Assembly: GCA_002070505.1 (NCBI GenBank)
Contig: MWDJ01000016.1
Location: forward strand, 1-63,422
DNA: 63,422 nt
Reading direction: 5' to 3'
Source: Bacteroidetes bacterium ADurb.Bin145
Lineage (GTDB): Bacteria > Bacteroidota > Bacteroidia > Bacteroidales > VadinHA17
Shown: piece by piece, positions 8,121 through 53,330 of the stretch
Layout: each line of letters starts with the position of its first letter
How positions within the stretch are numbered: the first letter of the stretch is position 1
The notes under the pieces: generated by a model
Databases searched by the model: none
Told to the model about the DNA's origin: nothing
The model's input: only the letters and a program-made list of their open reading frames with translations
Translations under genes and position numbers: made by a program

Positions 8121-9005
8121 ATGAGCCTAGCAGAATTAGTACAAAGCAGCGGTTGGAAGAATTTTATCGCTAAACTTTATGGTTTAGGTGCTTCCGTCGT
8201 AATTGTTGGTGCATTGTTTAAAATACAACACTGGCCACTGGCAGGAACAATGCTTACAGTTGGTCTGTTAACCGAAGCTGTCATCTTCTTCTTTTCAGCT
8301 TTTGAGCCACTTCATGAAGAGGTAGACTGGTCGCTGGTCTATCCTGAACTTGCAGGAATTCCGGAGGAAGGAGCTGAAGAACTGCAATCTCATGGAGGCA
8401 GAAACCGCGGTATCGGAGGAGGAGGAGGATATGTTGGAGGTGGCGCCGGTTCTGCTGCCCTGGCAAAATTTGATGAGATGCTTGAAAAAGCCGAAATCAC
8501 TCCCGAATTGTTCCAGAAACTCGGAGTAGGAATGAAAAAACTTGGAGAGTCAACAGCAAATATCGCTGCAATGGGGGAGATATCGGCCGCATCATCCAAA
8601 TTCATGAATACAATGAATATTGCAAATGACTCTCTGAACAAACTGGCTGATTCATACCAGAATACTTCAAAAATCATTAATGAGACTGGTTCCAATTACA
8701 AACATATTGCTGATTCCTTATCCGTAATTGAGCTCGGTGGCAAATCGTATCAACAACAACTTGAGACACTGAATAAAAACCTTTCCGCTCTTAATGCAGT
8801 ATACGAACTGCAGAAAAAAGGAGCTGATGATCATCTGAAAGAATCTGATAATCTTTATAAAGGGCTTCAGGGCCTGGTGAAAAACCTTGCTGATTCCGCA
8901 GGCGATACAGCAAAATACCGCGAACAGATAACAAAACTCAACGAAAATTTGTCGGCTCTTAACAACGTTTATGGAAATATGCTTGCTGCTATGAATATCA
9001 AGTAA
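8121..9005 (+). CDS. porL: T9SS inner-membrane motor protein PorL/GldL
   Basis: Two N-terminal membrane helices (about residues 20-35 and 40-60) are followed by a cytoplasmic domain of about 230 residues with heptad-like stretches. GldL/PorL pairs with GldM/PorM to form the proton-driven motor that powers T9SS. Charged residues sit inside the membrane region here as in the family: Lys34 at the end of helix 1 and Glu52 in helix 2 (LLTEAVIFFFSAFEP), Glu52 being the best candidate for the proton-path glutamate. A glycine-rich linker (GGRNRGIGGGGGYVGGGAG) separates the membrane part from the coiled part. Fourth gene of the por operon. Confidence 0.95.
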   Translation: MSLAELVQSSGWKNFIAKLYGLGASVVIVGALFKIQHWPLAGTMLTVGLLTEAVIFFFSAFEPLHEEVDWSLVYPELAGIPEEGAEELQSHGGRNRGIGGGGGYVGGGAGSAALAKFDEMLEKAEITPELFQKLGVGMKKLGESTANIAAMGEISAASSKFMNTMNIANDSLNKLADSYQNTSKIINETGSNYKHIADSLSVIELGGKSYQQQLETLNKNLSALNAVYELQKKGADDHLKESDNLYKGLQGLVKNLADSAGDTAKYREQITKLNENLSALNNVYGNMLAAMNIK

Positions 9006-9043
9006 TAGAGCTTTTATTTCACCAAACTAAACTACCTTAGAAA

Positions 9044-10645
9044 ATGGCTCACGAAAAGCTATCTCCGCGACAAAAAATGATCGGTATGATGTACCTGGTG
9101 CTGACCGCCATGCTTGCACTCAACGTATCAAAGGAAGCTGTGAAAGCATTTATGCAGGTCGATAAGGGGCTTACTCTTACCGTGGATAACTATGTTAAAA
9201 AGAATAACCTGGTTTATGAAGCATTTGACAGAGCCGCTGCTGAAAATCCAACAAAAGCAGGACCATACAAAACAAAAGCATTTGCCGTAAAAGAACGTGC
9301 TGATGAACTTTATAATTTCATCCAGGACCTCAAAATTGAAATAATCAAAACTGCGGAAAGAGATGAGAATACTCCAGCTATTACCGGAACAACGATCGAC
9401 ATCACCCAGGTAAAGAGATTTGATGAAAACAATGTTCCGTCTGAGATCCTCGTCGGATCAAACGAAGCCGGAAAGGGCTATGCACTGAAAGCTGCTATAA
9501 ACGACTACCGTGAATTCCTTATTTCAACTCTCGAGGGAAAGAATCCTACTGCTGAAGAAGCACTTAGACAAACCCTCAATACCGATGATGCAAAAAATGA
9601 GGATGGTGAAATGGAACCCTGGGTTAACCTTATGTTCCAGACTATGCCTGTCGTTGGCGCTACTGCCTTATTGTCGAAAATTCAGGTTGACGTAAGAAAT
9701 GCTGAAACTGAAGTACTAAATTACCTTTACGGCCAGATCGATGCCTCATCCTTCAAATTCAACAAACTGAGTGCAATTGTTATACCTGACGCTAATTATG
9801 TAACGCTTGGATCAAATTATACTGCAAGGGTGTTCATCTCGGCTACCGATACGACCCAGCAGCCGATAATTACCGTAGGAGAACAGCAGTTGCCTCTTGA
9901 CGAAACCGGAAAAGGAATTTATTCCGTGCGTCCTTCCACAACAGGTGCAAAATCCTGGGGAGGTGTCATTTCTCTTAAAGCCCCTGACGGAACAACAAGA
10001 ACTTATCCTTTCAGCGCATCCTATGGTGTGGGAGAACCTAATGTCATCTGCTCTCCTACCGCCATGAATGTTATGTATTACGGAATACCCAATCCCCTTG
10101 ATGTCTCAGTACCCGGTGTCAGCCCTGACAAAATAAAGATCAGAGTGGTTAACGGCACTATAAGCACTGAAAGAGTTAAAAATTCGAAAGGTGAAAACTT
10201 CCGTGGAAGCTGGGCAGTAAGACCTTCAGCTGAAAGACAGAACGTCCAGGTCATAGTATCCTCTACAGATGCCAGCGGAAAAACAATATCATACGCTCCT
10301 TACGAATTCAGAGTTAAACCTGTTCCAAAACCTGAAGCAAGATTCGGTGGTAAAAATTCCGGAACAATATCAAGGAACCTTGCTGTTGCACAGCAGGGAG
10401 TCTTTGCCGTATTGCCCGATTTTGACTTCGACCTGCAATGGAGCGTAACAGGATTTACTGTGCTTTACTCCGACAGAATGGGCGACTTTGAGGAGAAAAG
10501 CTCAAGTAGTAATCTTACTGCCAGACAGAAAGAACTTCTCGGCAGATTAACAAAAGGTAAATACCTTACTATAAAAGATATAAAAGCTCTGGGACCCGAT
10601 AAAAAACCTGTCGACCTGAGTCCTATTATTTTGCAGATAGAGTAG
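9044..10645 (+). CDS. porM: T9SS motor shaft protein PorM/GldM
   Basis: A short cytoplasmic start ([12 protein letters not shown]) and a single membrane helix ([17 protein letters not shown]) lead into a long periplasmic part with an N-terminal helical domain and several beta-sandwich domains, the known make-up of the PorM/GldM dimer. It spans the periplasm and transmits rotation of the PorL/PorM motor to the PorK/PorN ring. At 533 aa it matches the family. The gap to porL is 38 nt and to porN 19 nt. Confidence 0.96.
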
Positions 10646-10664
10646 TAATAAACATTTTATAACT

Positions 10665-11495
10665 ATGAACAAAAAAATTATTTTTGGATTTATCGTTCTG
10701 ATGTTTGGAAGCATAGCTCATGCTCAGGTGCAGTCGTTTGGCGATATTTACCAGAAATCAATTCCCGATGCTAAGAAAATCAATTATGCCTTTCTTAGAG
10801 AAGCTGACGTCATCTGGTCAAACAGATATTACCGGTTGATAGACCTGCGTGAAAAGATCAATCAGCCATTGTACTATCCTACACTCCCGACCCGTGATGG
10901 AAGAAGAAGCTTCATTAATATCCTGCTTGATGAAATTAAAGCCGGTAATATAAATGCTTATTCAGTCCTTGATATTAACGTGCCGACTACTTATCAGGAT
11001 ATAGAGACAAATATGGGCGCTACAACCAGGATCCAGCAGATCCAGATCAATGCAGCCGGCGACACAAGGGATTCTCTTATTACAGAACAGGCCAGACCAG
11101 AAGATGTTAAACAACTCCTTGTTTATGAAGAGTGGTACTTCGATAAGAAACTCTCAAAGATGGATGTCAGGATAATAGCAATATGTCCTTACTGGATGGG
11201 CAACGACCCTGAACTTCAGAGAGCTATGAGGAAACCTCTCTTCTGGGTTAAATTTGAAGAGATCCGGGATATCCTTGCAAAAAATGAAGCTCTTGTTTCA
11301 AATAACGATGCACAAAGGCTCTCATTTGATGATCTTTTCATGCAAAGAAGATTCGGAAGTATCATCTGGGGCGAATCAAATGTTTTCAACGACAGATCAG
11401 TCAACGAATATACCGTTGGCAAAGCTTCCCTCTTCGAAGCTGAACGACTGAAGACAGAACTGTTCAACCTGGAACACGACCTTTGGGAATATTAA
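10665..11495 (+). CDS. porN: T9SS ring protein PorN/GldN
   Basis: A cleavable signal peptide ([20 protein letters not shown]) precedes a periplasmic domain with the family features [20 protein letters not shown] and [18 protein letters not shown]. PorN/GldN assembles with PorK into the outer-membrane-associated ring contacted by PorM. At 276 aa it is of normal size. Last gene of the operon; a strong bidirectional terminator follows 25 nt after the stop codon. Confidence 0.95.
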
Positions 11496-11520
11496 AATAT
11501 CTGTTCCTCAAGTAAATATG

Positions 11521-11550
11521 AAAAAAGGGTGCCCGAAAGCACCCTTTTTT
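11521..11550. terminator. Bidirectional intrinsic terminator between porN and manC
   Basis: A6-GGGTGC-CCGAAA-GCACCC-T6: a 6-bp GC-rich stem extended by A6/T6 pairing, with a U-run on either strand. It lies between the convergent porN and manC genes and can end both transcripts. Confidence 0.9.
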
Positions 11551-11570
11551 ATGGAATTGACTAAAAATGA

Positions 11571-12662
11571 CTAAAGGTATTTTTCACCTGTATCCTTCTT
11601 TACATCTTCAAGGTAGTTTTTAATATTCTGCTCTTCATCTTTCTTTACAATAAGCAATACATCATCCGACTCAACAACTACATAATTCTCCAGTCCCTGT
11701 ATTACAGCAACTTTCCCATCTGAAATATTTATAATGTTCCCTTTATTTTCATATGAAAATACATTACCGCTTATAATTGTGTTGCCATCCTTATCAGATT
11801 TGGAATGTTCATATAAGGAACTCCATGTCCCAAGATCTGACCAGCCTATATCAGTACACATGACATATACATTATCAGCTTTCTCCATTATGCCGTAGTC
11901 GATCGAGATACTCCGGCATTCTGCATACGTCCTGCGTATAAAAACTTCTTCATCCTCAGTCCCGATGCGGGCTTTCCCCTCATCAAATGCTGCATACATA
12001 TCAGGCAGATATTTTTCAAAAGCTGCCAGGATTGTTTTCAGGTTCCAGAAAAAGATCCCTGAATTCCAGTAAAAATCACCACTCTGAAGAAATTTCGTTG
12101 CAAGATTAATATCGGGTTTCTCAGTAAACGTTTTCACCCTGTGCAAATCGCTGTGATTCTCAACCTTTTTCTTAAGATCAGCCTGGATATAACCGTAACC
12201 TGTTTCCGGTCTGTCAGGTTTAATACCTAAAGTGAGAAGAGCATTATTAGAGCTTACAAAATCAATACTTTTACCTATGACCCTGGAGAATTCTTCCTCT
12301 TTTGTTATAAGGTGATCAGCCGGAGTAACAGTGATAACTGCTTCCGGATTTTCCTTCAATATCCTGAATGTTCCGTATGCAAGGCAGGGGGCGGTATTTC
12401 GTCTGACAGGCTCTGCAAGAACATTAGAAGGATTAATATCAAGTTGCTTTACAACCAGATCCTTATGATCATCATTTGTAACAATAAAAATATTCGAGGC
12501 AGGACAGATTGATCTGAATCGCCTGAATGTCTGTTGCAGAAGTGTTTCTCCTGTACCCAGAATATCCAGGAATTGCTTGGGAGTTTCGCGACGGCTAAGT
12601 GGCCAGAAGCGGCTTCCCACACCTCCTGCCATTATTATTACAAATCTGTTATCCATGATCAC
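11571..12662 (-). CDS. manC: Mannose-1-phosphate guanylyltransferase
   Basis: Makes GDP-mannose from mannose-1-phosphate and GTP for surface polysaccharide or glycoprotein sugars. The nucleotidyltransferase signature MAGGVGSRFWPLSR and the following TPKQFLDI are near the N-terminus, and TFTEKPD and FYWNSGIFFW occur further on. The 363 aa form has the pyrophosphorylase domain plus a short left-handed beta-helix tail, without the fused isomerase domain of longer ManC/AlgA enzymes. The frame can start at GTG 12662 or ATG 12656; the ATG seems more likely. Divergent from mlaE, single-gene unit. Confidence 0.92.
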   Translation of the reverse strand: MIMDNRFVIIMAGGVGSRFWPLSRRETPKQFLDILGTGETLLQQTFRRFRSICPASNIFIVTNDDHKDLVVKQLDINPSNVLAEPVRRNTAPCLAYGTFRILKENPEAVITVTPADHLITKEEEFSRVIGKSIDFVSSNNALLTLGIKPDRPETGYGYIQADLKKKVENHSDLHRVKTFTEKPDINLATKFLQSGDFYWNSGIFFWNLKTILAAFEKYLPDMYAAFDEGKARIGTEDEEVFIRRTYAECRSISIDYGIMEKADNVYVMCTDIGWSDLGTWSSLYEHSKSDKDGNTIISGNVFSYENKGNIINISDGKVAVIQGLENYVVVESDDVLLIVKKDEEQNIKNYLEDVKKDTGEKYL

Positions 12663-24333: not shown

Positions 24334-25116
24334 ATGCCAACATTTCTTTTTGATAAAATAGTATTTGGCCCCGTAAAAAGCAGGAGACTCGGTATTTCAT
24401 TGGGAATCAACCTTTTGCCTTCAACACGCAAGATATGTAACTTTAATTGTATCTATTGTGAGTGCGGCTGGACGATGAGTTCAGCTATACAGAACGAATC
24501 TTTGCCATCACGCATAGAAGTTTATGAAGCTCTTGAAAAACGGCTTTCAGGAATGAAACAAAAAAAGCAGGCAATAGATGTTATAACATATGCAGGCAAT
24601 GGCGAACCCACGTTGCATCCTGAATTTCCGGGGATCATCGATGACAGCATTAAACTACGCGACAAATACTTTCCGGAAGCAAAAATTGCAGTCCTGTCAA
24701 ACTCTTCCTCTATCGGGAACCCTGCGATAAGGGAAGCTTTATTAAAAGTTGATTCAAATATTTTAAAGCTCGATTCAGCATTTGAACTTACTGTCAGGAT
24801 CCATAACCAGCCACGCGTCAACCTTAAGATCGGAGAGCTTATAGAAAACTTAAAACAATTCAAAGGAAGACTTATTATTCAGACACTTTTTGTAAGAGGA
24901 AAATTTAAAGACAGGATAATCGACAATACCACGCCTGAAGAAATAGAGGCCTGGCTGGAAGCCCTGAAAAGAATAAGGCCCTCTGAAGTGATGATTTATA
25001 CGATTTCAAGGGATACACCTGTTGAGGGGCAACTTGAAAAAGTGCCGCTCCGCGAATTGAGGAAAATTGCAACGCGGGTCAAAGAACTCGGTATCGAAAC
25101 ACAGGTGTCGGGCTGA
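24334..25116 (+). CDS. Radical SAM protein
   Basis: 260 aa. The [4Fe-4S] motif CxxxCxxC is present as CNFNCIYC (Cys35, Cys39, Cys42), followed by ITYAGNGEPTLHPEF, the GGEP-type SAM-binding region, and VLSNSSSI. It resembles the short radical SAM proteins related to the Fe-S oxidoreductase/wybutosine-type group (COG0731-like); the reaction is unknown. The start PTFLFDKIVFGPVKSRRLG is typical of that group. It lies 35 nt after the amidohydrolase gene and 2 nt before the glycosyltransferase gene. Confidence 0.87.
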   Translation: MPTFLFDKIVFGPVKSRRLGISLGINLLPSTRKICNFNCIYCECGWTMSSAIQNESLPSRIEVYEALEKRLSGMKQKKQAIDVITYAGNGEPTLHPEFPGIIDDSIKLRDKYFPEAKIAVLSNSSSIGNPAIREALLKVDSNILKLDSAFELTVRIHNQPRVNLKIGELIENLKQFKGRLIIQTLFVRGKFKDRIIDNTTPEEIEAWLEALKRIRPSEVMIYTISRDTPVEGQLEKVPLRELRKIATRVKELGIETQVSG

Positions 25117-47848: not shown

Positions 47849-48133
47849 ATGATTGATCTTAAATCCGTTCTGTCTCACTCTTCATCAGTAGTCACAAGAA
47901 AGACCGGAAATGAATATGTGCTTGTCCCGATATCTGACAATGTCGCCGATATGGACAGTGTTTACACTCTTAATGAGACGGGAGCTTTCATCTGGGAGCT
48001 GATCGACGGAAAGAAAAGTGTCAGTGACCTTATCAAGGCTTTAGCTGAAGAATATAAAATTGATATTGAAACTGCAGAATCGGATGTTCTTTCATTCATA
48101 AATAAGATGAAAGAATATCTGATGGTGAAATAA
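47849..48133 (+). CDS. PqqD-like RiPP recognition element protein
   Basis: 94 aa PqqD-family protein. The winged-helix RRE fold is recognisable from LNETGAFIWELIDGKKSVSD and LIKALAEEYKIDIETAESDVL, FINKMKEYLMV. Such proteins bind the leader of ribosomally made peptides (RiPPs) and present it to the tailoring enzymes. First gene of a head-to-tail cluster with a kinase, peptidase, exporter and nucleotidyltransferase. No precursor peptide is evident next to it. Confidence 0.88.
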   Translation: MIDLKSVLSHSSSVVTRKTGNEYVLVPISDNVADMDSVYTLNETGAFIWELIDGKKSVSDLIKALAEEYKIDIETAESDVLSFINKMKEYLMVK

Positions 48134-48211
48134 AAATACTAATTTTAGGAAGTACACTACCGGTTTATCCTGAGGAGCTGAAACGCATAAATTTAGTTGT
48201 TACCCGGTTCG

Positions 48212-49096
48212 ATGAGGAACTATAATTTAATAATAGCAGGATACAATATCAGGCTCGAGGCCTCTGATGACGGGCCCGATCTGTGGCCGGCTGAAAGATT
48301 CCAAAGAAATATCTGCCAGTCAAACGATTTTGATGTTATTATCAGGGTCCATCGCGGATATTATTCTCTCCCTGAAGATTCCGAAAGATTATTTGTTGCC
48401 CCGTATGCGGTTGAGGTTAAAGACATGAAAATTACAACCCGGGATAATTTCTGGAGTGTTTACAGGCATCAGTCAGGCATGTTCCTGGCTACCAATTTCC
48501 CGGCTAATCATAATAAAACCGCTGTCCTTAAATTCTCCCTGATTATACGGGAATGGGAGCTGTGGATAGACGGGATAGATAATTCGACCGATCCTCTTGA
48601 ATATCCGCTTGACGGCCTGATCCTTTATTACCTGACAGTTATCAGCGGTGACATAATGATACATGCTTCAGGCGTAAATATTGCCGGACGCGGCTACCTT
48701 TTCAGCGGTACTTCAGGTAAAGGGAAATCCACAATTGCCAGGATCTGCGGTGAATCAGGGGCAACGATCATCCATGACGACAGACTGATAATCAGGAGTA
48801 TTAACGGAGAATATCATATCTATAACACCCCTGTTTACAGGGATGACAAGCCTGCAGAATCCCTTCTCCACAGGATCTTCCTTATAGAGCATGGTAATGA
48901 GAATAAAATAGTGCCGGTAGCCGGAGCCTCAGCTGTTTCTCTTGTCATTGCGAACTGTATCCAGCATAATTATAATCCGGAGCTTATTGCCCGCTTCCTC
49001 GGATCAGTATCTATTATGTGCTCAGTGATACCGGTTGCATCCCTCCATTTCAGACCCGACCGCAGGGTGATCGATCATATCCTTGAAAATGAATAG
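48212..49096 (+). CDS. HPr-kinase-like protein kinase of RiPP-type cluster
   Basis: 294 aa from the ATG at 48212 (MRNYNLIIAGYNIRL); a TTG 15 nt upstream is in frame but less likely. The P-loop is GTSGKGKS (residues 166-173) after IMIHASGVNIAGRGYLFS, followed by the HprK-type Asp-Asp in IIHDDRLIIR. HprK relatives in lasso-peptide clusters such as paeninodin phosphorylate the precursor's C-terminal residue. Here the N-terminal 130 residues, unlike HprK, are a beta-rich domain. The 3' end overlaps the peptidase gene by 14 nt. Substrate unknown. Confidence 0.82.
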   Translation: MRNYNLIIAGYNIRLEASDDGPDLWPAERFQRNICQSNDFDVIIRVHRGYYSLPEDSERLFVAPYAVEVKDMKITTRDNFWSVYRHQSGMFLATNFPANHNKTAVLKFSLIIREWELWIDGIDNSTDPLEYPLDGLILYYLTVISGDIMIHASGVNIAGRGYLFSGTSGKGKSTIARICGESGATIIHDDRLIIRSINGEYHIYNTPVYRDDKPAESLLHRIFLIEHGNENKIVPVAGASAVSLVIANCIQHNYNPELIARFLGSVSIMCSVIPVASLHFRPDRRVIDHILENE

Positions 49097-49547
49097 GGAT
49101 CCGGATAAGCATAAAATCATAAGGGATATCGGATTCTCTTTGCTTGATGCAGGCAGGATCATTAAGGTCAGGGCAGACGGGTTCAGCATGTTCCCGTCAC
49201 TGAAACCCGGTTCAACAGTCTATATTCAGCCAATCAACGGAGATATCACTCCTTTACCCGGTGAGATAGTTGCATGGAAAAGGGAATCGGGACTGGTGGT
49301 CCACCGCCTGGTAAGGATCCTGAAAAATGAAAGCAGCATCCTGTTTATTACAAGAGGAGACAGTTGCGCCAATGAAGATAAAGCTGTTGGTGCCGATCAG
49401 GTTGTCGGAAAGGTCGTTCGTGTTGAAGATCTTAAAGGGAGAACAATAACCGGAGAAGATCTTATAAGGAAACCTTTTTATCTTTATAACAGAGTATTTG
49501 TGCGGATCTTATTAATAGTCCGGAAATTGCTGAATACCATTTCGTAA
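49083..49547 (+). CDS. S24/S26-type signal-peptidase-like serine protease, no membrane anchor
   Basis: 154 aa. The catalytic Ser35 is in GFSMFPSLKPG; His74 in VVHRLVRI takes the place of the usual lysine general base, and Asp93 lies in TRGDSCANED. This Ser-His-Asp set is that of SipW/eukaryotic-type signal peptidases. No N-terminal membrane helix is present; a hydrophobic segment near the end (RVFVRILLIVRKLL) is the only membrane-like part. In this cluster it could cleave the leader of a modified peptide during export. The alternative start ATG at 49089 is equally possible. Confidence 0.8.
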   Translation: MKMNRDPDKHKIIRDIGFSLLDAGRIIKVRADGFSMFPSLKPGSTVYIQPINGDITPLPGEIVAWKRESGLVVHRLVRILKNESSILFITRGDSCANEDKAVGADQVVGKVVRVEDLKGRTITGEDLIRKPFYLYNRVFVRILLIVRKLLNTIS

Positions 49548-49582
49548 TTCAGGCGTGGATGAAATTAACTCCCGATACCTAA

Positions 49583-51370
49583 ATGAGAACCAGGATAAAA
49601 TATTTCAGGGAATCAATCAGACTTGTCTGGAAAAGCGCTCCTTCCTGGACGCTGGCAAATATCATTATATCTGTCCTGCGCAGCTTCCTTCCCCTCGTTC
49701 TTATATGGCTCCTTAAAGAGCTTATCGATATAATAACAAAGGTTGCATCATCAGGTCAGGGAACAGTACCGGCTGATGTCCTCTGGCTGATAATTGCCGT
49801 CGTTATTTTCTGGTTCCTTGACGAAGCAGCTTCCGGCCTTGATACATATATCAGGAAGAAACAATCGATGAAGCTCGAGGATTATATGTACGGACTTCTT
49901 CATTCCAAATCAGTGAAGCTTGATCTGATCAATTTTGAAAGATCGGAATATTACGATGCCCTCTCCAGGGCCTCACGCGAAGCGCCCTGGAGGCCAAACA
50001 GCATCCTTAACAACATTGTATCAATGACCCGGGGACTACTTTCCCTTTTGCTTATGGCAGGAGTCCTTGCATTTCTCAACTGGTGGCTGGCAGCATTGCT
50101 GCTTGCAGTAAATATTCCCGGTATCTGGCTAAGGCTTCATTATACCGGCATCCTTTATAGTTTCCGCCTCAGGCAGACACCTGAAGCCAGAAAAACCGCC
50201 TATTTCAACTGGCTGCTCACAGGAGAGAGACCTTCGAGAGAAATAAGGCTTTTCGGACTGGGAGATTACTTTATATCTCTTTTCAGAAAATCCTTCCTTA
50301 AGACCCAGGAAGAAGAATTAGATATCCTTAAAAAGCGGACTCTCATTGAACTGATCTCGGATGTTGTTAAAGCAGCCGCTGTTCTGTTAACTCTTGTCAT
50401 AATAGCAGAAAAAACGGTTTCAGGTGGCATTACCCTGGGCCAGATGGCTATGTTCGTCCTGGCTTTCAGGCAGGGAATGATATATATAAAGGATTTCCTG
50501 GGTTCACTTGCAGGCCTCTACGAAGATTCCCTTTTTGTTGGTGATGTTTTTGAATTCCTTTCACTTGAAGAGAATGTGAAAGCCTTTCCTCCGGAAGCTG
50601 AACTTGAAGATTTCAGACATAACATTGTTGCTGATAAGCTCTGCTTCACCTACCCCGGAAATAAGACAAGGACCATAAACAACGTTTCATTTGAGATAAA
50701 AAAAGGTGAGATCATTGCCCTTGTGGGACCAAACGGAGCGGGTAAGAGTACGCTGGCAAGACTTCTCTGCAGGCTTTATGATCCGGAGTCGGGATCAGTG
50801 ATATGCGACGGTATCAATATAAAGAATCTCGACCCTAAGAAATACCGCAAGCTTCTGTCAGTAGTATTCCAGGATTTCATGCTTTATAATATGGCTGCCG
50901 GTGAGAATATAAGGATGGGTGATATAGATGAGAAAATGCCTGATGACAAGATCATAGCCGCTGCGAAAGTCACCGGCATTGATGCTCTCATAAGAGAGCT
51001 GCCTGAAGGTTATAACACTGCCATTGGCACATTGTTTGAAGACAGCCGAGAACTGAGCTGGGGCGAATGGCAGAAAATAGCGCTTGCCAGAGCCATCTTC
51101 AGGGAAGCACCCCTCCTGATACTTGATGAACCGTCAAGCGCTCTCGACGCTGAAACCGAATATGATATATTCAACCGTTTCAGGGATATAGTCAAAGGCC
51201 GGACATCAATATTGATAAGCCACCGTTTCACGAATATTAGTCTTGCCGATCGCATAATTGTCATAGACAAGGGTGAAGTTGTTGAATCGGGCACCCATGA
51301 GGAACTTATGAAAAGAAAAGGCCTCTATTATACAATGTATTCTAAGCAGAGCAGCAGGTTCGACAGATGA
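49583..51370 (+). CDS. ABC exporter, fused permease-ATPase
   Basis: 595 aa. Six membrane helices in residues 20-310 are followed by a nucleotide-binding domain: Walker A GPNGAGKST, Q-loop VVFQDFMLYN, signature LSWGEWQKIALARA, Walker B LLILDEPSSALDAE, switch His ISHRFTN. The LSxGxWQK variant is common in peptide exporters of lanthipeptide and lasso-peptide clusters. Resembles the D protein of lasso clusters. Its stop overlaps the nucleotidyltransferase start by 4 nt. No C39 peptidase domain is fused, so leader removal would need another enzyme, for which the S26-type protease is a candidate. Confidence 0.9.
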   Translation: MRTRIKYFRESIRLVWKSAPSWTLANIIISVLRSFLPLVLIWLLKELIDIITKVASSGQGTVPADVLWLIIAVVIFWFLDEAASGLDTYIRKKQSMKLEDYMYGLLHSKSVKLDLINFERSEYYDALSRASREAPWRPNSILNNIVSMTRGLLSLLLMAGVLAFLNWWLAALLLAVNIPGIWLRLHYTGILYSFRLRQTPEARKTAYFNWLLTGERPSREIRLFGLGDYFISLFRKSFLKTQEEELDILKKRTLIELISDVVKAAAVLLTLVIIAEKTVSGGITLGQMAMFVLAFRQGMIYIKDFLGSLAGLYEDSLFVGDVFEFLSLEENVKAFPPEAELEDFRHNIVADKLCFTYPGNKTRTINNVSFEIKKGEIIALVGPNGAGKSTLARLLCRLYDPESGSVICDGINIKNLDPKKYRKLLSVVFQDFMLYNMAAGENIRMGDIDEKMPDDKIIAAAKVTGIDALIRELPEGYNTAIGTLFEDSRELSWGEWQKIALARAIFREAPLLILDEPSSALDAETEYDIFNRFRDIVKGRTSILISHRFTNISLADRIIVIDKGEVVESGTHEELMKRKGLYYTMYSKQSSRFDR

Positions 51371-52539
51371 AAAAAGAACTTGAACTAAAAGACGAAGAGA
51401 TACTCCTGCTCGGACTGTGCAGAAGTTACTTCAATCCGGAGCTGAAAGTAATGCTCCGGGCACTTGCCGAGAATATTAAAGACTGGAATCATTTTATCCT
51501 TATGTCCTCGGAACACGGGGTTGCTGCACTGGTATATCATAATCTTGAGAGGCTTGACTTCCTTCAATATCTGCCAGAGGGAGGGAAAAACTTCCTGAAG
51601 AACTGCCTCCTGAAAAGCCTTACCAGAAACACAAGGAATGTTAAGGTGCTGGCAGAGGCTCTGCACCTGCTTAATGCGAAGAACATGAAGGTGATCCTGC
51701 TTAAAGGTCTCGCCCTTGAACTGATGGTCTACGGAAATGAGGGACTGAGGCAGATGACCGATCTTGATGTATTGCTTACCCGTCAGGATTGTCTTAATGC
51801 AAGGATGCTGTTGATGGAGAACGGGTTCAGATCCTACCCGGTCAAGTCGGCCTTCCATAAACCGATAATGGGTTACATAGGCAAGCATCTGCCGACTCTT
51901 GTAAAGAATGACCTGAGGCTGGAGCTTCATCACGATCTCTTTGGAAAAGATAATTTCTCTCTCACCGGACTTCTGTATGAGCGAAGCATTGAAAGGGAGA
52001 TAAATGGGGAAAAAGCTTTCCTCCCTCCAAAAGATATCTTCTTCCTTTATCTGGTACGGCATTTGTGCATGCACGAGATGAATAATGAATCTCAGCTAAG
52101 GCTTTATTCAGATCTCGTTTTTCTAACTGAGAAATTCAGAGATGAAATATTTACGACCGATCTGATCGGTTATGCCGGCAAGGCAGGTTTGAATGCGCTG
52201 CTTGCAGCTAAACTTGAACCATTGAGGGATCTGTGGGGATTGACATTTCCTGAATGGATAAATGAATTCATTGATAAATATTATGATCCTGCATCAATAA
52301 ATGATTTTGTTTTCTTCATTAAGAGCCCGAAGAATAACCCGTCTAAAAATAAAGGAAAGTTCTATTATAATACTTTCAGGGAGATTCCCGGGATCCACAG
52401 GAAGATCCTTTATATTTTAGGAGATCTCTTCCCTACTCCCGGCTTCATGAAAAGAAGGTATAAGTGTAAAAGCAGTCTGGGGATCATTTCCTGTTATATG
52501 CTTCGGTGGGGAAAGTTGTGGTATCTGATAAGGCACTGA
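51367..52539 (+). CDS. Nucleotidyltransferase of the PF14907 type
   Basis: 390 aa. The NTP-transferase core is seen in VILLKGLALELMVYGNEGLR, then MTDLDVLL with two acidic metal ligands (Asp-x-Asp), and LRLELHHDLFG. Members of this family (uncharacterised nucleotidyltransferase) recur in RiPP clusters with HPr-type kinases; their chemistry is unsettled. Overlaps the ABC exporter gene by 4 nt (ATGA), last gene of the cluster. The C-terminal 120 residues have no known domain. Confidence 0.8.
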   Translation: MKKELELKDEEILLLGLCRSYFNPELKVMLRALAENIKDWNHFILMSSEHGVAALVYHNLERLDFLQYLPEGGKNFLKNCLLKSLTRNTRNVKVLAEALHLLNAKNMKVILLKGLALELMVYGNEGLRQMTDLDVLLTRQDCLNARMLLMENGFRSYPVKSAFHKPIMGYIGKHLPTLVKNDLRLELHHDLFGKDNFSLTGLLYERSIEREINGEKAFLPPKDIFFLYLVRHLCMHEMNNESQLRLYSDLVFLTEKFRDEIFTTDLIGYAGKAGLNALLAAKLEPLRDLWGLTFPEWINEFIDKYYDPASINDFVFFIKSPKNNPSKNKGKFYYNTFREIPGIHRKILYILGDLFPTPGFMKRRYKCKSSLGIISCYMLRWGKLWYLIRH

Positions 52540-53124: not shown

Positions 53125-53229
53125 GTGAAAAGACAATTCTGCTTCAGTGAAAGGGAGAGAGCTATCCTGGAAGAGCTAATCAGACAAGTGAAAGGTATTA
53201 ATTATGTACTTGGTCTGCAGATATCTTAA
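53125..53229 (+). pseudogene. Possible 34-codon gene remnant
   Basis: A GTG-started frame of 34 codons with protein-like composition (ERERAILEELIRQVKGINYV...) ends in TAA at 53229, inside the first hairpin of the repeat element. It may be the tail of a decayed gene; the family is not recognised and it could be chance. Confidence 0.25.
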
Positions 53230-53330
53230 GCCCCTTCAGGGCTTACTTCGGGAGAGATGCCCTTACCTCCGGTTGCACCGGAGGTTATTCATATTCAGTC
53301 ATTTAATGACTGCTTTGTTAAGCCCTTAAC
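53227..53330 (+). repeat. Multi-hairpin interspersed element, copy A
   Basis: Four hairpins in a row. h1 is TAAGCCCCTTCAGGGCTTA (53227-53245). h2 is ACCTCCGG/CCGGAGGT (53265-53285). After the spacer TATTCATATT comes h3, CAGTCATTTAATGACTG (53296-53312). h4 is GTTAAGCCCTTAAC (53317-53330). Same plan as copies C, D and E but with different stem sequences. Confidence 0.7.

Follow-up and report, generated by a model that had tools for sequence, protein, structure and literature searches.

A five-gene module of a Bacteroidota genome that probably matures and exports linear phosphopeptides encoded in trans

Results

The five-gene module

The DNA analysed here, hereafter the window, is contig C16 (63422 bases) of the genome of Bacteroidetes bacterium ADurb.Bin145 (G000). 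At 47849-52539 it carries five plus-strand open reading frames (ORFs), and we found both the gene order given by a first-pass annotation of this DNA and the integrity of the frames confirmed: the five genes are real and intact. They probably encode the maturation and export core of a ribosomally synthesised and post-translationally modified peptide (RiPP) pathway of the Linear Polyphosphorylated Peptide (LPP) type, acting in trans on a 73-amino acid precursor whose gene is on another contig of this genome (C33). The first-pass annotation had proposed that the set works by itself to phosphorylate a peptide, with an S26-type protease in place of the lasso leader protease, and as a reading of the sequence this appears to be right.

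The LPP pathway was described in Bacillota, from the lpp cluster of Paenibacillus alginolyticus (Popov et al., Nat Commun, May 2026; PMC13381572). According to the main text of that paper, its components are a RiPP recognition element (RRE) protein, LppB, an HprK-like kinase, LppK, a SipW-like leader peptidase, LppS, an MsbA-like exporter, LppD, and a nucleoside triphosphate (NTP) transferase, LppN. The RRE binds a YxxP motif in the leader, with LppB residues D70 and N33 holding the Tyr and the Pro, and the kinase adds several phosphates to Ser3 of the core, which is Tyr+18; in vitro, the peptidase cut the leader only when the RRE was present (PMC13381572).

Each of these components has an equivalent in the window. 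The first gene (47849..48133, +) encodes a PqqD-like discrete RRE, the LppB equivalent (PF05402 PqqD, E 2e-21). After a gap of 78 bases, with no plus-strand ORF of at least 18 amino acids, comes an HprK-like peptide kinase, the LppK equivalent (48212..49096, +; the ATG at 48212 is the likelier start, the frame being open from a TTG at 48197). It matches Hpr_kinase_C at E 1e-4, under Pfam's own cut-off, and the NCBIfam families ScmC and HprK_rel_B at E about 3e-8, under the cut-offs of both, and has the Walker A and DDR residues. A plasmid search with this kinase gave no match. Overlapping the kinase gene, the third gene (49083..49547, +) encodes a SipW/archaeal-type signal-peptidase-like leader peptidase, the LppS equivalent, with matches under the curated cut-offs to sigpep_I_arch, a signal peptidase I family (E 2e-10), and to SipW (E 2e-9). 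The fourth (49583..51370, +) is an MsbA-like ABC exporter with transmembrane and ATPase parts, the LppD equivalent (ABC_tran E 2e-32, ABC_membrane E 3e-9); it contains the sequence LSWGEWQ and its best NCBIfam neighbour is MsbA (E 9e-82, under its cut-off). Finally, overlapping the exporter gene, a nucleotidyltransferase-fold protein, the LppN equivalent (51367..52539, +; NTP_transf_5 PF14907, E 7e-38), is the sole PF14907 match found in the genome. Within the module itself there is no precursor, no lasso B2 and no cyclase.

Conservation in relatives

We searched an order-level sample of 295 genomes with the kinase and obtained 32 matches at E<=1e-8, 26 of them below 1e-18. Module loci were defined by a kinase match at E<1e-70, giving 41 loci, among them the window and two duplicate records (L202 of L080, L206 of L076). 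Beside the kinase, an RRE was found in 36 loci, an S26 domain in 36 (in five of them fused to the exporter), a recognised exporter in 20 and a PF14907 protein in 22, several of the contigs being short; all five families occur together in nine loci, the window being one. The usual order is RRE, kinase, peptidase, then the exporter if there is one, while the PF14907 gene, if present at all, can be on either strand. In five relatives (L047, L049, L051, L074, L075) the exporter carries the peptidase as an N-terminal fusion. This grouping of genes is beyond chance.

The residues on which such a pathway would depend are conserved, as judged from the alignments. In the RRE, N42 and D79, which correspond to LppB N33 and D70, are each kept in 46 of 49 aligned sequences (duplicates included); the first-pass annotation had held that its idea of a distinct system would fall if the leader groove was lost, and these groove residues are kept in the PqqD-like protein of the window. 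An RRE profile (A7) matched leader-binding RREs of solved structure in the PDB: TbiB1 (6e-11), PbaB1 (1.6e-9) and LppB (9x8z_B, 2.8e-7). The predicted structure of the PqqD-like protein, of middling quality (pLDDT 75), has leader-bound TbiB1 as its best fold match (TM 0.69). In the kinase, H151, G169, G171, K172 and D190 are invariant in 41/41 sequences and D189 in 40/41 (duplicates included). The putative peptidase triad is also kept, with S35 and H74 in 42/42 aligned sequences and D99 in 37/42, and its spacing of 39 and 25 residues is identical to that of S29, H68 and D93 reported for LppS (PMC13381572, main text).

Some loci depart from the common pattern. In a congener of the window genome (G112, locus L044, contig C24), an insertion at 8616-12042 that by eye resembles a restriction-modification set splits the kinase gene from the peptidase gene; this is also a genome without a detectable precursor. 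Four loci from metagenome-assembled genomes (MAGs) of Acidobacteriota (L082-L085) show the permuted order peptidase-kinase-RRE, with no recognised precursor of the YxxP family; they may represent one more branch of this type of pathway. Candidatus Desulfobacula maris (L087, 2889-6797), a MAG from a different phylum, has a kinase, an RRE, an S26-type peptidase and an ABC exporter in a row, so that the module may extend still further. In Paenibacillus sp. LHD-117 (L089, 7399-10548), a WxxP peptide with a GS-repeat tail is accompanied by an ABC gene and an HprK-like gene, and lasso B2 or C was not recognised within the 16 kb; this is possibly another kinase-only peptide cluster.

A precursor family encoded in trans

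The first-pass annotation had suggested looking for conserved short ORFs, and many relatives do have one between the RRE and kinase genes. From eight sequences of this ORF we built a profile (A2) and ran it against 14 module genomes, 13 of which gave a best match of E 2e-7 or better (two of the 13, G090 and G192, had contributed to A2); G112 gave none. The window genome has a single match, on contig C33 at 24722-24886 (E 2.2e-13), within a candidate precursor gene of 73 codons with a TTG start (24686-24907). The earlier idea of a precursor encoded elsewhere thus gained a concrete candidate. C16 and C33 are separate contigs, and from the distances to the contig ends the module and precursor loci lie at least 16 kb apart. 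A precursor in cis was rejected, given the empty RRE-kinase gap and the only genome-wide profile match being on C33; a 41-amino acid ORF at 53204-53329 was also rejected, as it contains YLKP by chance and the rest of the motif is missing.

The congener G294 likewise has one A2 match (E 2.5e-12), and between the two precursor genes synonymous divergence (dS) is 0.96 and non-synonymous divergence (dN) 0.16 (Nei-Gojobori), indicating purifying selection. In a contig of a more distant Bacteroidota MAG (L073, kinase 46% identical), the five genes have the same order as in the window and the precursor lies about 0.7 kb downstream of the module, with one opposite-strand ORF in between. There are up to five precursor copies per genome; as an example, those of G085 are on five contigs.

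Most members of the family (72/76) match [YFWH]xxP, with Y in 69. After this anchor, V, I or L stands at +5 in 66 of the 72 and D at +11 in 70, and +20 holds Ser in 52 or Thr in 20. Two of the 72 anchors (L201, L218) fell on a chance motif upstream, and in the 70 correctly anchored members Ser or Thr stands exactly at Tyr+20 without exception (70/70). The four sequences with no motif match are two cut by contig ends (L047, L196), one with an inner start (L121) and one without the Tyr (L213). The shared block reads YxxPx[VIL]....[IL]D..IS[LM].MM[ST], and is followed by variable tails rich in P, G, D and S, frequently ending in NPFK, SPFE or NPLRWWK. Known families did not account for these peptides: none of 38 members matched Pfam at E<=0.1, four NCBIfam families gave one weak match each (best E 0.033), and the precursor profile had three matches in the PDB, at E 0.36 or worse, which we took as chance.

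Unusual arrangements were also seen. At 10320-10780 on the minus strand of L195 (G477:C5), four tandem leader-only members end at the Ser/Thr or at most two residues past it, adjoining a set of RRE, kinase, peptidase and PF14907 genes. Some precursors distant from a recognised kinase have a PqqD-like gene directly upstream (L118, 7960-8497; L128, 8207-8658; L212, 4417-4865; L213, 2252-2728). In L236 (G019:C113), 17 bases behind a gene with a sorting domain of the type IX secretion system (T9SS), there is another YxxP peptide (YIAPAIETIEVIVERGFAQSPPP...) which looks like a different peptide family; the module kinase was undetected in that genome.

Co-occurrence of precursor and module

A second precursor profile (A3) matches 28 of the 295 order genomes. 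At the original kinase cut-off (1e-8), the precursor is present in 23/32 kinase-positive genomes vs 5/263 others, and at 1e-18 in 23/26 vs 5/269. Since loci of this kind went into A3, the overlap is in part circular. In a class-level sample of 395 genomes, the precursor profile matches 12 genomes and the kinase profile 15 at E<=1e-20, the kinase scores showing a gap between 7e-75 and 3e-30. Here the precursor is found in 9/15 kinase-positive genomes vs 3/380 others at 1e-20, and in 9/10 vs 3/385 at 1e-70; the stricter cut-offs (1e-18 and 1e-70) were picked after the gap was seen. Once the profile sources G000, G029 and G508 are removed, the figures are 6/7 vs 3/385 at 1e-70 (p 1e-10), a tally in which G475, not a profile source, counts as kinase-positive and in which other profile sequences may stem from species close to those sampled.

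Proposed course of maturation

From the gene content, the conserved active sites, the in-trans precursor family, its co-occurrence with the module and the adjacency to cargo genes described below, all of them features of sequence, we infer the following course for phosphorylation, cleavage and the role of the peptide. The PqqD-like protein would bind the leader of the precursor through YxxPx[VIL], and the HprK-like kinase would then phosphorylate the invariant Ser/Thr at Tyr+20, the presumed phospho-acceptor. The RRE would present the leader to the SipW-like Ser-His-Asp peptidase, for a cut just before or near this residue, and the ABC protein would export the linear phosphopeptide, to whose phosphate the PF14907 protein may attach a nucleotidyl or sugar-phosphate group. 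Nucleotidylation, which the first-pass annotation had put forward, is conjectural; when lppN of the Bacillota pathway was deleted, the product in the heterologous host did not detectably change (PMC13381572, main text). As a last and weakest step, the exported peptide might serve the T9SS cargo surface protein encoded just upstream of the precursor.

Precursor genes often lie behind T9SS cargo genes

Precursor genes, or the RRE gene just ahead of them, mostly lie directly behind same-strand genes of large proteins. For the 76 precursors, no upstream gene was available in 8 cases, and the gene is on the opposite strand in 11 and on the same strand in 57, which correspond to 56 distinct genes (L202 and L206 dropped). 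The tails of these 56 contain the T9SS sorting domain PF18962 (E<=0.01) in 43 cases, vs 4 of 56 control tails (p 2e-14), the controls being the top 56 entries when 272 genes for proteins of at least 200 amino acids, from the same loci but minus module genes and partners, were put in shuffled order. Many of these PF18962 matches fall under Pfam's own cut-off: among 10 whole cargo proteins, 7 match at E<=0.001 and 3 reach it. The cargo protein of the window genome (C33, 939 amino acids) is outside those 7, and its tail has the NCBIfam T9SS type A domain over the cut-off (27.6 vs 23 bits). The PorU sortase is present in the same genome (1227 bits).

Partner tails are poor in the PNP motif, found in 3/46 of them vs 22/41 other sorting-domain tails (the latter set includes tandem neighbours of partners and the duplicate record L202). 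A PNP-less T9SS tail with RFxLHF was considered as a private mark of the precursor partners and discarded, since full-length matches also come from module-free genomes (17 of 39, among the matches listed). In module genomes, 14 of 22 tail matches are followed by a precursor; these are mostly profile seeds, so the tally is circular and we do not use it as evidence. A body domain shared by the cargo proteins was also sought, and Pfam found none in 10 full or partial proteins at E<=0.001; the bodies are diverse. In two genomes in which the module was undetected (L246, G020:C192; L237, G299:C3), the gene that directly follows a T9SS sorting-domain gene codes for a small, signal-peptide-like protein that combines a P/G-rich stretch with a PID-CTERM sorting domain (NF046080) and is possibly an alternative partner peptide.

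Any role of the peptide for the cargo is suggested by gene position. The phosphopeptides might be dedicated cargo partners, each bound or covalently joined on the cell surface to the neighbouring protein; it might, for instance, accept or cap the sortase-processed C-terminus when the tail of the cargo lacks the usual PNP motif. We regard this as a long shot. That the neighbourhood has no functional meaning, cargo operons being just expression or insertion sites for precursor genes, is itself unlikely, if appreciably less so: the diversity of the cargo bodies, the precursors that adjoin unrelated genes and the occurrence of the partner tail type without precursors would all fit it, yet the adjacency is strong (43/56 vs 4/56), and it is seen repeatedly, both across several families and among the unlinked copies of a single genome.

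Discussion

Relation to lasso and other known systems

The first-pass annotation had taken the module for a lasso-like accessory cluster. This was not borne out: with profiles built from lasso loci (E<=1e-5), and some contigs being short, lasso cyclase (C) or B2 was found in 0/41 module loci, and the module fits an LPP-type pathway as in Bacillota. The annotation had also raised the case that relatives always carry B2 and C beyond the ends of the window, and the same count answers it. The window genome does have a separate, canonical lasso cluster on one short contig (L253, C107, 560-3857): a precursor containing KPWSRP, a B2 gene with the cyclase adjacent, and an HprK-like gene of its own. 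On contig C84 there is a PqqD gene (L012, 228-542) that may go with this cluster. Across the 25 other module genomes, lasso B2 (PF13471) is over the cut-off in four, always on another contig than the module. In the five genomes with B2 over the cut-off (G000, G157, G047, G170 and G263; the sub-threshold G038 and G233 were left out) both systems are present, and the lasso leader has WxxP where the module precursor has YxxP. Of such peptidases in Bacillota, about one in three is linked to lasso genes, and the Y/W split is described as a means of keeping the LPP and lasso pathways apart (PMC13381572, main text).

As far as the main text of PMC13381572 describes LPP, the likeness is close. The discrete RRE, HprK-like kinase, SipW-like Ser-His-Asp peptidase, MsbA-like exporter and NTP transferase are all in the window, with no cyclase; the leader has YxxPx[VIL] in common with LPP leaders and, at a fixed distance after YxxP, a conserved hydroxyl residue, and the co-existing lasso clusters use WxxP. 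The differences from what is described there are that the host is a member of Bacteroidota, that the precursor is in trans and often multi-copy, that the hydroxyl is at Tyr+20 instead of Tyr+18 and can be Thr, and that there are peptidase-exporter fusions and T9SS cargo genes, as opposed to the capsule loci of LPP.

Other systems resemble the module in part. Paeninodin-like lasso clusters share the PqqD-like RRE, the HprK-like kinase, the NTP transferase and the exporter, whereas the module lacks the macrolactam synthetase C and B2, has Y and not W in the leader, and is without the lasso Thr at the penultimate leader position. The NCBIfam ScmC/HprK_rel systems also have an HprK-like kinase beside a PqqD-like protein, but the window kinase scores far under the cut-offs of those families. 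Peptidase-containing ABC transporters (PCATs) are C39-ABC peptidase-exporters with a C39 cysteine protease that acts on a double-Gly leader. Here too a leader protease and an ABC exporter would act together (compare PMC6363468), the protease being N-terminally fused to the ABC protein in the five relatives. The protease is in this case a serine, S26-type enzyme and not C39, and there is no double-Gly leader.

The pathway type is already known, and discrete RREs away from lasso genes have been said to belong perhaps to uncharacterised RiPP classes (PMC7470986). What is new is an LPP-type system in Bacteroidota, with precursors in trans and multi-copy, five fusions and the T9SS pairing; in the open-licence PMC literature, among the matches listed, we found none of these in print. 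In its main text, PMC13381572 describes both paeninodins and LPP as confined to Bacillota, and the biological role of LPP as unknown; the string 'Bacteroid' has 0 occurrences there, and the network of that paper consists mostly, not only, of Bacillota proteins.

Weighing the readings

Several observations weigh against an LPP-type pathway acting on these precursors. Thr takes the place of Ser in about a quarter of the Bacteroidota precursors, and LppK did not phosphorylate an S3T variant (PMC13381572, main text); the LPP consensus given there, YxxPxVLxHQxIxFETxxS with a cut after T-1, does not describe our precursors, in which HQ and the FET cleavage motif are absent. No exporter was recognised near the kinase in 21/41 loci. 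The RRE profile scores the lasso RREs TbiB1 and PbaB1 above LppB. Co-occurrence has its exceptions: in G112, of the same genus as the window genome and 98% complete, the module is present and the precursor undetected; the kinase likewise occurs without the precursor in G038 and G233 (order) and in G475 (class, 83% complete); G123, G163, G236, G256 and G291 (order) have the precursor without a kinase match, as do three class genomes that share a genus with positive ones. The precursor profile was also trained partly on module loci, and module-free genomes, too, have T9SS tails of the form seen in the partners.

Some of these points bear on descent more than on mechanism. The Bacteroidota systems could work as LPP does and still have been assembled independently from lasso-type parts, as analogues and not members of the LPP clade, which is compatible with our preferred explanation and which we consider quite possible, if short of probable. 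The RRE scores fit such an origin, as does the precursor block, ID..ISL.MMS here against LxHQxIxFETxxS in LPP, and independent emergence followed by convergence is what PMC13381572 argues, in its main text, for paeninodin and LPP. The identity of the five-family gene set and of the triad spacing with those described for LPP speaks against it. Far less room is left for a lasso accessory set or remnant, with the five proteins decorating and exporting the lasso peptide of the B2 and cyclase encoded on C107. That cluster, though it exists in the same genome with precursor, B2 and cyclase, has its own kinase, and possibly the PqqD of C84; PF13471 is over the cut-off in just 4/25 other module genomes and there never on the contig of the module, C and B2 are in 0/41 loci, and it is a dedicated, non-lasso precursor family that tracks the module. 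We rejected the module as a lasso remnant because C and B2 were not found beside it, and hold a lasso role very unlikely. Least probable of all is that the module acts on a non-RiPP substrate, such as a polysaccharide or a carrier, the YxxP peptides being unrelated to it. Kinases, nucleotidyltransferases and MsbA-like proteins could in general serve a glycan, but in many relatives the peptides are encoded between RRE and kinase, and they go with the module from genome to genome and carry the RRE-binding motif in their leader; this alternative, also raised by the first-pass annotation, is without support.

Implications

The LPP-type reading of the window, which we consider probable, would widen the pathway: a Bacteroidota branch with multi-copy precursors in trans suggests that it can be set up as a common workshop in which several substrates are processed. 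Coupling of cleavage to export is supported by the natural peptidase-exporter fusions, and the Y/W leader split described for Bacillota (PMC13381572, main text) recurs in the five Bacteroidota genomes with both systems. The recurring pairing of precursor and T9SS genes offers a concrete, testable clue to the role of LPP-type phosphopeptides. If the peptides did prove to be partners of the neighbouring cargo, they would represent a peptide-based route for anchoring or decorating surface proteins, and this would be the first function for LPP-type peptides.

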